Position numbers and translations under genes: made by a program. Shown here one piece after another: positions 7,102-10,463 of a DNA stretch of 64,000 bases. This stretch comes from Mariprofundus sp. EBB-1 (lineage in GTDB: Bacteria; Pseudomonadota; Zetaproteobacteria; Mariprofundales; Mariprofundaceae). The notes beneath the pieces were generated by a model that worked only from the letters and a program-made list of their open reading frames with translations, did no database searches and was not told the origin of the DNA. The stretch is taken from assembly GCF_003665155.1 (NCBI RefSeq), contig NZ_RCFQ01000012.1, positions 1 to 64,000 on the forward strand. Reading direction: 5' to 3'. Position 1 is the stretch's first letter, and each line of letters opens with the position of its first letter.

Positions 7102-8295
7102 ATGGACAAACGATATGACATGATTGTGATCGGCGCAGGCATTAGTGGCTTGGCCATGGCTTTTGAAGCCAAACAGGCTGGCCTGAAGGTGCTGGTCTTG
7201 GAAAAAGAGGCACGCTGCGGTGGCTGCTTTGATTCAGCGGCGGTGGAAAATGCTCAGCAAGCGTTCTGGGTCGAAATGGGCACACATACCTGCTTTAACT
7301 CATACGCTCGTCTATTGAGTATATTAGACAGGTTGGGACTGATGGATCAACTGCAGGCCCGTGAAAAGCTGCGTTATCGCTTGCTGGTTGACGGTTCGCT
7401 CTATTCTATCCCGTCTCGCTTACACTTTGTTGAGCTGATGACCCATGCCTGGCGTATATTTTCACTCAAAAAGCAGAATCAATCGGTAGCCGATTATTAT
7501 GGCGCGCTCGTTGGCCCTAAAAACTATACAGAACTGTTTCAACACGCTCTAAGCGCGGTGGTATGCCAGGATGTAAATAATGTACCAGCCGACATGCTGT
7601 TCCGAAAACGGCCACGTGATAAATCTATTATGCGCAGCTATACCTTTTCCGGCGGTCTCCAGGATATTATTCAGGCTCTGGAACAACAATTGGATATTCA
7701 TACGAATCAGCATATTACATCCATTGCGAAGGATGAAAGTGGCTACGCCATCACAACAGCCGATGCCTGCTATCATAGTGATCGGCTGGTTTGTGCCACG
7801 CCTGGCCTGGCAGCATCACGCCTGCTCAAGCAAGCCCATCCCGAGATTGCAGCGCAACTTAACTGGATTCGTGAGGTAGAGATTGAGTCTGTCGCTGTGG
7901 TGATGCAAAAAGCCACCTTGTCACAAGAATCCATGGCAGGGCTTATCGCCGTGGATGGAGACTTTTATTCAGCCGTATCACGCGATTACATCGAGCACCC
8001 AACACTCCGAGGCTTTACGTTCCACTTTAAGCCAGGCCTGCTCAGCGAACAAGAAAAAGTGGAGCGCATATGCACTGCTTTACAGATCAGCAACTCCGAC
8101 ATTCAACATCTGTTTCATAAAACCAACCGATTACCCGCACCGGATATGGGACATTATCAACTCATCGAAGCACTGGATGCATCGTTGGCGGACACTCAAC
8201 TGTCCCTGATCGGCAACTACTTTAAAGGCGTGGCAGTAGAAGACTGTTTGGAACGGGTTGAAACAGAATTCCACCGCATCATGCCATCCGCATGA
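7102..8295 (+). CDS. FAD-dependent oxidoreductase, protoporphyrinogen-oxidase-like
   Basis: The 397-aa protein has an N-terminal dinucleotide-binding fold (DMIVIGAGISGLAMAFEA, then VLVLEKEARCGGC). A HemY/amine-oxidase style middle follows (SVADYYGALVGPKNY, LFQHALSAVVCQD, TFSGGLQDI). The C-terminus has an FAD-contact segment near SLIGNYFKGVAVEDCLE. It may oxidise protoporphyrinogen IX or another amine or polyene substrate; hemH at 29.6 kb makes a haem role conceivable but is not linked. It is the first gene of a rightward run: its stop overlaps the next start by 4 nt (ATGA), implying translational coupling. There is no signal peptide, so the protein is cytoplasmic or peripheral. Confidence 0.8.
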   Translation: MDKRYDMIVIGAGISGLAMAFEAKQAGLKVLVLEKEARCGGCFDSAAVENAQQAFWVEMGTHTCFNSYARLLSILDRLGLMDQLQAREKLRYRLLVDGSLYSIPSRLHFVELMTHAWRIFSLKKQNQSVADYYGALVGPKNYTELFQHALSAVVCQDVNNVPADMLFRKRPRDKSIMRSYTFSGGLQDIIQALEQQLDIHTNQHITSIAKDESGYAITTADACYHSDRLVCATPGLAASRLLKQAHPEIAAQLNWIREVEIESVAVVMQKATLSQESMAGLIAVDGDFYSAVSRDYIEHPTLRGFTFHFKPGLLSEQEKVERICTALQISNSDIQHLFHKTNRLPAPDMGHYQLIEALDASLADTQLSLIGNYFKGVAVEDCLERVETEFHRIMPSA

Positions 8296-8738
8296 GGGTA
8301 TGCGTAGTTTTGATGGCAACCACGCTGTTACTGCTCTCTGGCTGCAGCAGTGAAAAAACAGATATTATGTTTGAATGCCCTTCTCCATCAGGGAACAAGA
8401 CCGCCACCCTCTTCCGCATCTCTCACGGCGATAATCCGATCCATCAAGAAATGAAAATCAACATTCGCCAGGCCAATAAACAGTTCAATGATGACATGGC
8501 CAGCTTTTCCTTTAAATATGGTTATGATGCCCTTATACGATGGCAGTCCGATGATGCCATCATCATTGAATACCCCGTAGATTCCGAACTTACACATCAG
8601 GAAACTGTCATTTTCGGCACCACGTACAGCTTTAGCAGCAGTGATATCATCCATGTGACCTATCAAGAGAAACCATCTACTCACGGTTATTTCCTGATCG
8701 AACAACGTTGTTTTACAACCAATCCCCTCGCCAATTAA
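8292..8738 (+). CDS. Small putative lipoprotein of unknown function
   Basis: The 148-aa protein begins with a lipoprotein signal (MRVCVVLMATTLLLLSGC), lipidation being expected at Cys18. The mature part has alternating polar and hydrophobic stretches suggesting a small beta-rich domain, plus one further cysteine near the C-terminus (EQRCF). I recognise no family. The start overlaps the stop of the oxidoreductase gene (ATGA), so the two are probably co-translated. About 130 nt separate it from the next gene, where no terminator is evident. Confidence 0.7.
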   Translation: MRVCVVLMATTLLLLSGCSSEKTDIMFECPSPSGNKTATLFRISHGDNPIHQEMKINIRQANKQFNDDMASFSFKYGYDALIRWQSDDAIIIEYPVDSELTHQETVIFGTTYSFSSSDIIHVTYQEKPSTHGYFLIEQRCFTTNPLAN

Positions 8739-8867
8739 AGTATATATTTAAAAGAAACAGGACATCTCGCCACTGTCGCACCACCACCTGAAAAAAAGTT
8801 ATGGAGAATTCAATCAGGCTAGTACAAGATAGCTGCTGCACATAGCGTGGCAAGGGAGAGCATATCA

Positions 8868-10463
8868 GTGCCTTATACAAGCAAGCAGATCAGTGAAGAA
8901 CTAGCCCTGAATCATCTGGGCTTAAAAAACCTGGAAGATGTATTCTGGAATATGCCTACCCCTCTGTTTTATGAACATGCTCTGCGCAATAGAGAGGGAC
9001 ACTTAGCCCATCAAGGGGCTTTGGTGGTACGCAATGGACACTTCACCGGTCAGTCAGTAAAAGATAAATATATTGTAGGTGACTCGCTGAACAATTTCGA
9101 TGACGCCCATGGTGATTTTGACCGCTCTCTATCCAAATCGCAATTTGAAGCCTTGCTCAATCGCGTGCGCGGCTATCTGGAAGGGCGTCAACTGTATGTC
9201 GAGGACTGTTTGGTGGCAGCCGAATCAGAGCATCAAAAATCGATACGCATCATTACGCAAGACGCATGGCATGGCCTGTTTGCCAGAACTATGTTCATTC
9301 GACCTTCCGACCTTAGTCAAAAAACCGATTTCAAGGAACCAGAATTCACCATTATTCACGTTCCGCATTTTCACGCAGTACCTGGCCGTGACGGCACCAA
9401 TGCAGAGACGTTTGTCATTATCGACCCAAGCCAGCGCATTGCACTCATCGGTGGCACTGCCTATGCAGGTGAGATCAAAAACACTGTTTTCGCCATCATG
9501 AATCACCTGCTGGTGAAATCAGACGTACTGCAGCTGCATGCCGCCGTAAATGTGAGTGATAATGGCGATGCGACCCTATTTCTTGGCCCGGATGGCAGTG
9601 GCAAAACGGCACTGGCATCGGATCCATCCCGCAGCTTTCTTGGAGATGACATGCACGGCTGGAATAACGAGCATATTTTCAATTTTGAAGCAGGCTGTTA
9701 CGCCAGCATCAAGCAGCTCGACAAAGACCGTGAACCTGTAATACATGCAGCCAGCCAGCAATTTGGTTCGATTCTGGAAAATGTTGGTATGGATACTCAA
9801 GAGCGTCGCATTGACTTTACTGATACCACACTGACTGAGAATACCCGGGCAGCTTACCCGATTAGCGCCTTATCCAACGCTGCCTCTCCTCCTTACACGA
9901 TCAGTAGTCCAACAAACCTTATTTTACTGGCCTCTGATGCCTTTGGTATATTGCCGGCCATCTCGCGCTTAACGCCGGAACAGCTTATCTATTATTATCT
10001 ATTGGGTTATGGATCTCACCCTGCCGATAACCATGAAACGAATGCTGAACCCATTGCCACATTCAGCCCCTGCTGCGGCATACCATTGATGGCGATGCAT
10101 CCTTCCGTTTCTGCAAAAGTGCTCGGTGCCAAAGTACGTCGTGGAAATGTTCAGTGTTGGTTGATTAATACAGGCTGGAGCGGCGGCCCTGCCGGCGTTG
10201 GCGAACGCATGAACATTGAATTAACACGCACATTAATCACCGCCGCATTAAACGGCAATCTGGATGACCTCAGCTATCAGGCACACCCCGTTCTGGGCAT
10301 GCAAATGCCAGATCAGCTTGATCCGATTGCGACCTGGCATGATCAGGAAAACCCGAAAACATATACAACAGCGGCCAAACAATTGGCTGCAAAATTCAAA
10401 CAAGCTTTTGCCCGGTTCACAGATCATGTGCCTGCAGAAGTGACAGCAGCGGGGCCTCGTTAA
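8868..10463 (+). CDS. PEP carboxykinase (ATP)-like protein with altered active site
   Basis: The 531-aa protein aligns end to end with ATP-type PckA (540 aa in E. coli). Retained features are a P-loop GPDGSGKT (residues 240-247), LGDDMHGW (metal Asp261), His224 in LHAAVN, NTRAAYPI (Arg327) and the NTGWSGG segment. Two canonical residues are changed: the TGRSPKDK motif reads TGQSVKDK (Gln62 where E. coli has substrate-binding Arg65), and GEMKKG reads GEIKNT (Asn205 where E. coli has metal-ligand Lys213). Normal carboxykinase chemistry is therefore doubtful; a kinase or nucleotide-dependent role on another substrate is an inference. GTG 8868 has AGGGAG nine nt upstream; GTG 8847 is in frame without a ribosome site. 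Only 2 nt separate it from the next gene, so they are coupled. Confidence 0.75.
   Translation: MPYTSKQISEELALNHLGLKNLEDVFWNMPTPLFYEHALRNREGHLAHQGALVVRNGHFTGQSVKDKYIVGDSLNNFDDAHGDFDRSLSKSQFEALLNRVRGYLEGRQLYVEDCLVAAESEHQKSIRIITQDAWHGLFARTMFIRPSDLSQKTDFKEPEFTIIHVPHFHAVPGRDGTNAETFVIIDPSQRIALIGGTAYAGEIKNTVFAIMNHLLVKSDVLQLHAAVNVSDNGDATLFLGPDGSGKTALASDPSRSFLGDDMHGWNNEHIFNFEAGCYASIKQLDKDREPVIHAASQQFGSILENVGMDTQERRIDFTDTTLTENTRAAYPISALSNAASPPYTISSPTNLILLASDAFGILPAISRLTPEQLIYYYLLGYGSHPADNHETNAEPIATFSPCCGIPLMAMHPSVSAKVLGAKVRRGNVQCWLINTGWSGGPAGVGERMNIELTRTLITAALNGNLDDLSYQAHPVLGMQMPDQLDPIATWHDQENPKTYTTAAKQLAAKFKQAFARFTDHVPAEVTAAGPR

Follow-up and report, generated by a model that had tools for sequence, protein, structure and literature searches.

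In the ATP-dependent phosphoenolpyruvate carboxykinase (PEPCK, PckA; PF01293) of Escherichia coli, Arg65 binds oxaloacetate, PEP and CO2, and Lys213, His232 and Asp269 are ligands of the Mn2+ ion; Lys254 and Thr255 belong to the P-loop, and Ser250 and Lys288 lie in the region of the ATP phosphates. Core residues of the nucleotide site are shared between PEPCK and HPr kinase. Many pseudoenzymes arise after gene duplication. A clear precedent for a dispensable PckA comes from Brucella abortus and B. melitensis, in which pckA is frameshifted and PEP is made by pyruvate phosphate dikinase (PPDK) (PMC5896264).

The PEPCK-family gene of Mariprofundus sp. EBB-1 described here resembles each of these systems in part. 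Like PckA of E. coli and Thermus thermophilus, its protein shows full-length homology, is encoded at the canonical Mariprofundus pck locus and keeps the P-loop Lys and Thr, Asp268, Asp269, His232, Arg333 and Arg449 (E. coli numbering). Unlike PckA, it has Arg65, Lys213, Ser250, Lys288, Phe409 and Phe413 replaced, and it scores below all six curated NCBIfam cut-offs for PEPCK (483 against 590 for TIGR00224, 579 against 636 for PRK09344). As in Brucella, the sole PEPCK would have been lost in place (PMC5896264), but the Brucella gene is truncated and non-functional, whereas the Mariprofundus frame is intact, under purifying selection and marked by recurrent active-site replacements. HPr kinase/phosphorylase (PF07475) is a relative in the P-loop fold with a similar nucleotide-site core; the protein has no PF07475 match, however, and the genome carries a separate HprK. 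Finally, as in pseudoenzymes and pseudokinases, invariant catalytic residues are gone while fold and ligand site are retained, but here the single Mariprofundus ortholog itself, rather than a duplicate, appears to have been converted.

The window, by which we mean the whole stretch of 64,000 nucleotides analysed (contig NZ_RCFQ01000012.1, positions 1 to 64,000), contains the gene in the following setting.

8854 to 8859, forward strand: Shine-Dalgarno-like GGGAGA, serving the GTG at 8868
8868 to 10463, forward strand: pck-like gene, 531 aa, GTG start, the sole PEPCK-family gene of the genome
10466 to 11584, forward strand: downstream gene, 372 aa, beginning 2 bases past the pck stop

Membership of the PEPCK family by descent is certain. 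The frame matches PF01293 with 521.9 bits (E 1.8e-156; curated cut-off 26.5 bits) over profile positions 2–460 of 465, that is, over its full length, and this is the only Pfam domain reported in the protein. Judged by the residues tested (Arg65, Lys213, Ser250 and Lys288), membership as a PEPCK enzyme would fail. The GTG at 8868 is a better start than the GTG at 8847, because GGGAGA lies 8 nt upstream of it and the frame of the ortholog in genome G009 opens only at the equivalent codon. AlphaFold2 models, built from four-row alignments only, gave a pLDDT of 30 for the pck-like protein and 42 for its downstream neighbour. The genome itself (G000; 2.88 Mb, 99.5% complete) has a single PF01293 gene and lacks a GTP-type PEPCK (PF00821), and the idea that a second, canonical PEPCK elsewhere had freed the window copy was therefore rejected.

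A sequence-only reading of this DNA had proposed that Gln62 and Asn205 stand in for two canonical catalytic residues, and the alignment confirms it: they fall on Arg65 and Lys213 (the second Lys of GEMKKG), both invariant in 41 of 41 aligned canonical PEPCKs, E. coli and Thermus included. Misalignment was rejected as their source, since the alignment is ungapped and unambiguous around both positions. The residues concerned are encoded as follows.

9051 to 9053, forward strand: codon of Gln62, at the position of E. coli Arg65
9480 to 9482, forward strand: codon of Asn205, at the position of E. coli Lys213
9537 to 9539, forward strand: codon of His224, equal to E. coli His232, Mn2+ ligand, kept
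9585 to 9608, forward strand: P-loop GPDGSGKT (canonical GLSGTGKT), with Pro241, Asp242 and Ser244 altered and Lys246 and Thr247 kept
9645 to 9650, forward strand: Asp260-Asp261, equal to E. coli Asp268-Asp269, kept
9705 to 9707, forward strand: codon of Ser280, at the position of E. coli Lys288
9846 to 9848, forward strand: codon of Arg327, equal to E. coli Arg333, kept
10074 to 10088, forward strand: CGIPL (canonical FGAPF), with Cys403 at Phe409 and Leu407 at Phe413

The replacements go beyond the two first noticed and include Leu249Pro, Ser250Asp and Thr252Ser, all in the P-loop, as well as Glu270Met, Gly283Ala, Lys288Ser, Phe409Cys and Phe413Leu. Altogether 27 of 104 canonical-invariant positions are altered, against 0–1 in the canonical Mariprofundus proteins, a load far beyond chance. 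Sequencing error is excluded, because independently assembled relatives (loci L032–L034, from separate Mariprofundus MAGs) show these residues too. Apart from the residues already named, Tyr207, Gly209, Lys212, Tyr286 and Glu297 are kept. Read against the known residue roles, the replacements mainly hit positions that hold oxaloacetate or PEP and Mn2+, leaving the ATP-Mg core largely intact. The earlier statement that the nucleotide site looks functional holds for Lys254, Thr255, Asp268, Asp269, Glu297 and Arg449, but not for Ser250, which has become Asp, nor for the ATP-contacting Lys288, which has become Ser or Arg.

The prediction that a clade would keep both substitutions was borne out by alignment and tree. 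In the genus, 22 further genomes were compared: 11 have a canonical pck, and three (G006, G009 and G012) carry the signature of the window gene, which is thus common to four Mariprofundus genomes. G014 has diverged further (386 bits, with Asn at both 65 and 213, His at 207 and Glu at 250) and forms a long branch in the pck tree, and the sisters G001 and G015 are intermediate, with Arg65 kept and K213T, S250D and K288R. The remaining five, including the single-contig G008 and G011, have no pck. Position 65 is thus Gln in four altered proteins and Asn in G014, position 213 is Asn in five and Thr in the two sisters, and positions 250 and 288 are occupied by Asp/Glu and Ser/Arg, respectively; His232, Asp269, Lys254, Thr255, Asp268 and Arg333 are kept in all seven. 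The seven altered proteins group together with support of 100/98, and the five lacking Arg65 with 100/100. In all seven altered loci, as in the canonical ones, the gene immediately downstream of pck is the same cupin-like gene. Tree, residue distribution and shared locus together indicate that the only ortholog changed stepwise at its own locus, with Lys213, Ser250 and Lys288 replaced first and Arg65, Phe409 and Phe413 later. The window gene is the PckA ortholog of a Mariprofundus subclade, present as a single copy and passed on by vertical descent. A search of public genomes for close relatives returned only three Mariprofundus MAGs.

Selection was assessed by dN/dS (Nei-Gojobori). The window gene gave 0.10 against G006, 0.10 against G009 and 0.08 against G012, of which the G006 value is the firmest, being from the closest pair (dS 0.23), as dS is saturated in more distant ones; G009 against G012 gave 0.07. 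These values are similar to those of the neighbouring genes (mostly 0.03–0.13) and somewhat higher than those of canonical Mariprofundus pck pairs (0.03–0.07). For G014 the ratio was 0.22, about twice that of its neighbours. Neither a frameshift nor a stop was found in the seven altered Mariprofundus copies or in 19 degenerate alphaproteobacterial copies described below. The contention that the change is not decay is supported by the ratios of 0.07–0.10 and the unbroken frames. Residues invariant in active homologs have been lost from an intact frame under purifying selection, which is the pattern of a pseudoenzyme.

How could such a gene lose its original task? Each of the 16 Mariprofundus genomes tested encodes a pyruvate carboxylase subunit of the PycB type together with one or more proteins that carry a PPDK_N domain (PPDK or PEP synthase type), and none encodes PEP carboxylase; the genome of the window has two PPDK-like frames, of 923 and 987 aa. 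Since these bypass genes can, as we infer, replace PEPCK at the PEP-pyruvate-oxaloacetate node, its loss would be tolerable in Mariprofundus. In the closed genomes G008 and G011 pck has been lost outright, with no remnant within 11–15 kb around the retained cupin-like gene.

A second, independent and more extreme case was encountered in a wider sample. PF01293 is present in 195 of 299 sampled genomes of the phylum, almost always above 600 bits; outside Mariprofundus, low scores were confined to two split or partial genes and to an intact frame of 498 aa with 144 bits in genome G133. In one otherwise complete genome from another family (G292), pck is split into two overlapping frames (L085 and L087), apparently by a frameshift. 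Among 25 sampled members of G133's genus (g72; loci L086, L114 and L117–L134), the single-copy pck frames range from 713 down to 134 bits; six are canonical and 19 degenerate but unbroken, with identity to canonical PEPCK down to about 35%. The degenerate copies have lost Arg65 (17/19), Tyr207 (19/19), Lys213 (16/19), His232 (14/19) and Asp269 (14/19), and retain Lys254 (17/19) and, in all cases, Thr/Ser255, Asp268, Arg333 and Arg449. K213N and S250D occur together in G330, as in Mariprofundus. In nearly all loci of the genus, canonical and degenerate, pck adjoins the same ChvI-like response regulator, mostly 98–100% identical; from this regulator and the pck tree we infer both the ChvI name and the class Alphaproteobacteria. 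Of 124 canonical-invariant positions, 55 are altered in most of the alphaproteobacterial set, Mariprofundus has 34 altered, and 28 are common to both (hypergeometric p 1.5e-7), an overlap expected in part simply because some sites tolerate change. Among the altered proteins, M231L is universal and S234A nearly so. A single-clade origin of the degenerate copies within the genus was not rejected (p 0.33). Their dN/dS of 0.08–0.53 is higher than in Mariprofundus, indicating that relaxation plays a larger part there.

We lean, by a little, towards the explanation that the protein has lost PEPCK activity and that purifying selection now keeps it as a pseudoenzyme that binds ATP. The half of the active site that handles oxaloacetate, PEP and Mn2+ appears to be dismantled, and the fold appears to be kept together with the half that forms the P-loop ATP-Mg site. 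Pyruvate carboxylase and PPDK or PEP synthase, whose genes are present, may first have made PEPCK dispensable. Residue distribution and tree show that Lys213, Ser250 and Lys288 were replaced in the common ancestor of the seven genomes; Arg65, Phe409, Phe413, Leu249, Thr252 and Gly283 followed in five of the seven. By the known roles of these residues, oxaloacetate and PEP would no longer be interconverted at a useful rate, and the protein, preserved by purifying selection, would act as an ATP-binding pseudoenzyme, most likely through a nucleotide-dependent conformation or the binding of a partner. This explanation draws on the residue pattern, the status of the gene as sole PEPCK, the clade support, the shared locus, the dN/dS ratios, the bypass genes, the clean losses, the scores below the cut-offs, the alphaproteobacterial parallel and Lys244 of rat PCK1 (see below). 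Against it, Tyr207, Lys212, His232, Asp268, Asp269 and Arg333 remain, a larger set than a completely inactive enzyme would require, and Asp at 250 could be a replacement metal ligand. No interaction partner of the pck-like protein or function-indicating gene context was found.

Altered chemistry, the conclusion of the sequence-only reading, is one interpretation of the replacements. A catalytically dead pseudoenzyme that binds ATP explains them at least equally well: what has gone are residues required for oxaloacetate/PEP and Mn2+, and the data point to no new substrate. In the specific form of altered chemistry, which we regard as unlikely, the protein would be an ATP-dependent phosphotransferase for another acceptor, a small molecule or a protein, with an HPr-kinase-like core kept and the decarboxylation-specific residues lost. 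The kept residues are indeed largely those that PEPCK shares with HPr kinase (P-loop Lys/Thr, Asp268, His232 and Arg333), and K213N, P249, S252, A283 and L413 are derived states that have become fixed and stay conserved, which a new site would lead one to expect. For the kinship of this core with HprK we rely on established knowledge: when the profiles of canonical PEPCK and Mariprofundus HprK were compared, the P-loop and Asp-Asp motifs did align, but the match was not significant (probability 0.9%). That PEPCK and HPr kinase have been filed in one kinase family (PMC1079889) also counts for a phosphotransferase. On the other hand, the changes of Lys288 to Ser/Arg and of Ser250 to Asp/Glu should disturb phosphate handling, no candidate substrate is co-localised, and most alphaproteobacterial counterparts lack His232 and Asp269 as well.

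A working PEPCK with compensation, for example with Asp250 and Asn205 rebuilding the Mn2+ site and Gln62 holding the substrate carboxylate, strikes us as quite improbable. It would accord with the strong purifying selection and with the retention of His232, Asp269, Tyr207, Lys212 and Arg333 in four of the five proteins lacking Arg65, but G014 has lost Tyr207 too, Phe409, Phe413, Ser250 and Lys288 are gone, and Arg65 and Lys213 do not vary in canonical sequences. E. coli PEPCK chains with changes at the same sites exist in the PDB, with Gln at 65 (6crt) and Ser at 213 (2py7); we take both to be engineered mutants, and as such they also speak against a working enzyme. No kinetic papers on Arg65 or Lys213 were found in the literature searched. 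Lys244 of rat PCK1 is presumably the equivalent of E. coli Lys213. It is described as a ligand of the oxaloacetate-bound Mn2+; acetylation of this Lys prevents the coordination and leaves about 1% of the activity (PMC7948413), which argues against a working PEPCK. Slow decay of an unneeded gene with no new role would suit the dispensability of PEPCK in the genus, the long branch and raised ratio of G014 and the wide alphaproteobacterial range, but is very improbable given the neighbour-like dN/dS in the window's clade, the 26 unbroken frames and the invariant nucleotide-site residues.

It is tempting to go beyond the pseudoenzyme explanation and to speculate, quite tentatively, that in bacteria PEPCK, while remaining a single-copy gene at its original locus, has on at least two occasions become a new regulator or kinase that depends on ATP and continues to sense the PEP/oxaloacetate node or the level of ATP, and that the residue changes on the way coincide in part (M231L, S234A, loss of R65 and K213, K288R). 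No described PEPCK pseudoenzyme was found in the literature searched, most subscription journals lying outside that search. Because these genes all clear the Pfam cut-off and would usually receive the annotation phosphoenolpyruvate carboxykinase, metabolic models of the Fe-oxidising Mariprofundus autotrophs and of the alphaproteobacterial genus may include a reaction that the cells lack. The graded series, from canonical through altered K213/S250/K288 and additional loss of R65 to the extreme forms, in two genera and with no duplication, is a natural experiment on a central enzyme that would be losing its chemistry while still under selection.

The product of the downstream gene is cupin/JmjC-like by its HxD...H motif only, with no Pfam or PDB match; the motif is suggestive of a JmjC/cupin oxygenase. 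The gene is nearly universal in Mariprofundaceae beside pck, canonical or divergent, and persists where pck is gone. A functional linkage between the two was not adopted, since the cupin-like gene pairs with canonical pck too and persists alone without it. One in-frame TAA is reported for it in G030, G037 and G039 (loci L074, L079 and L077), which are related genomes within the same family. A second, larger HPr-kinase-like protein (339–402 aa) with a partial PF07475 match occurs beside the regular HprK in G010, G012, G015 and G016. Directly upstream of the pck-like gene, at 7102–8738 of the window, are a FAD-dependent amine-oxidase-like gene and a gene for a putative lipoprotein of 148 aa, a pair seen only in the five genomes whose pck lacks R65 and not beside canonical pck in the other loci searched.
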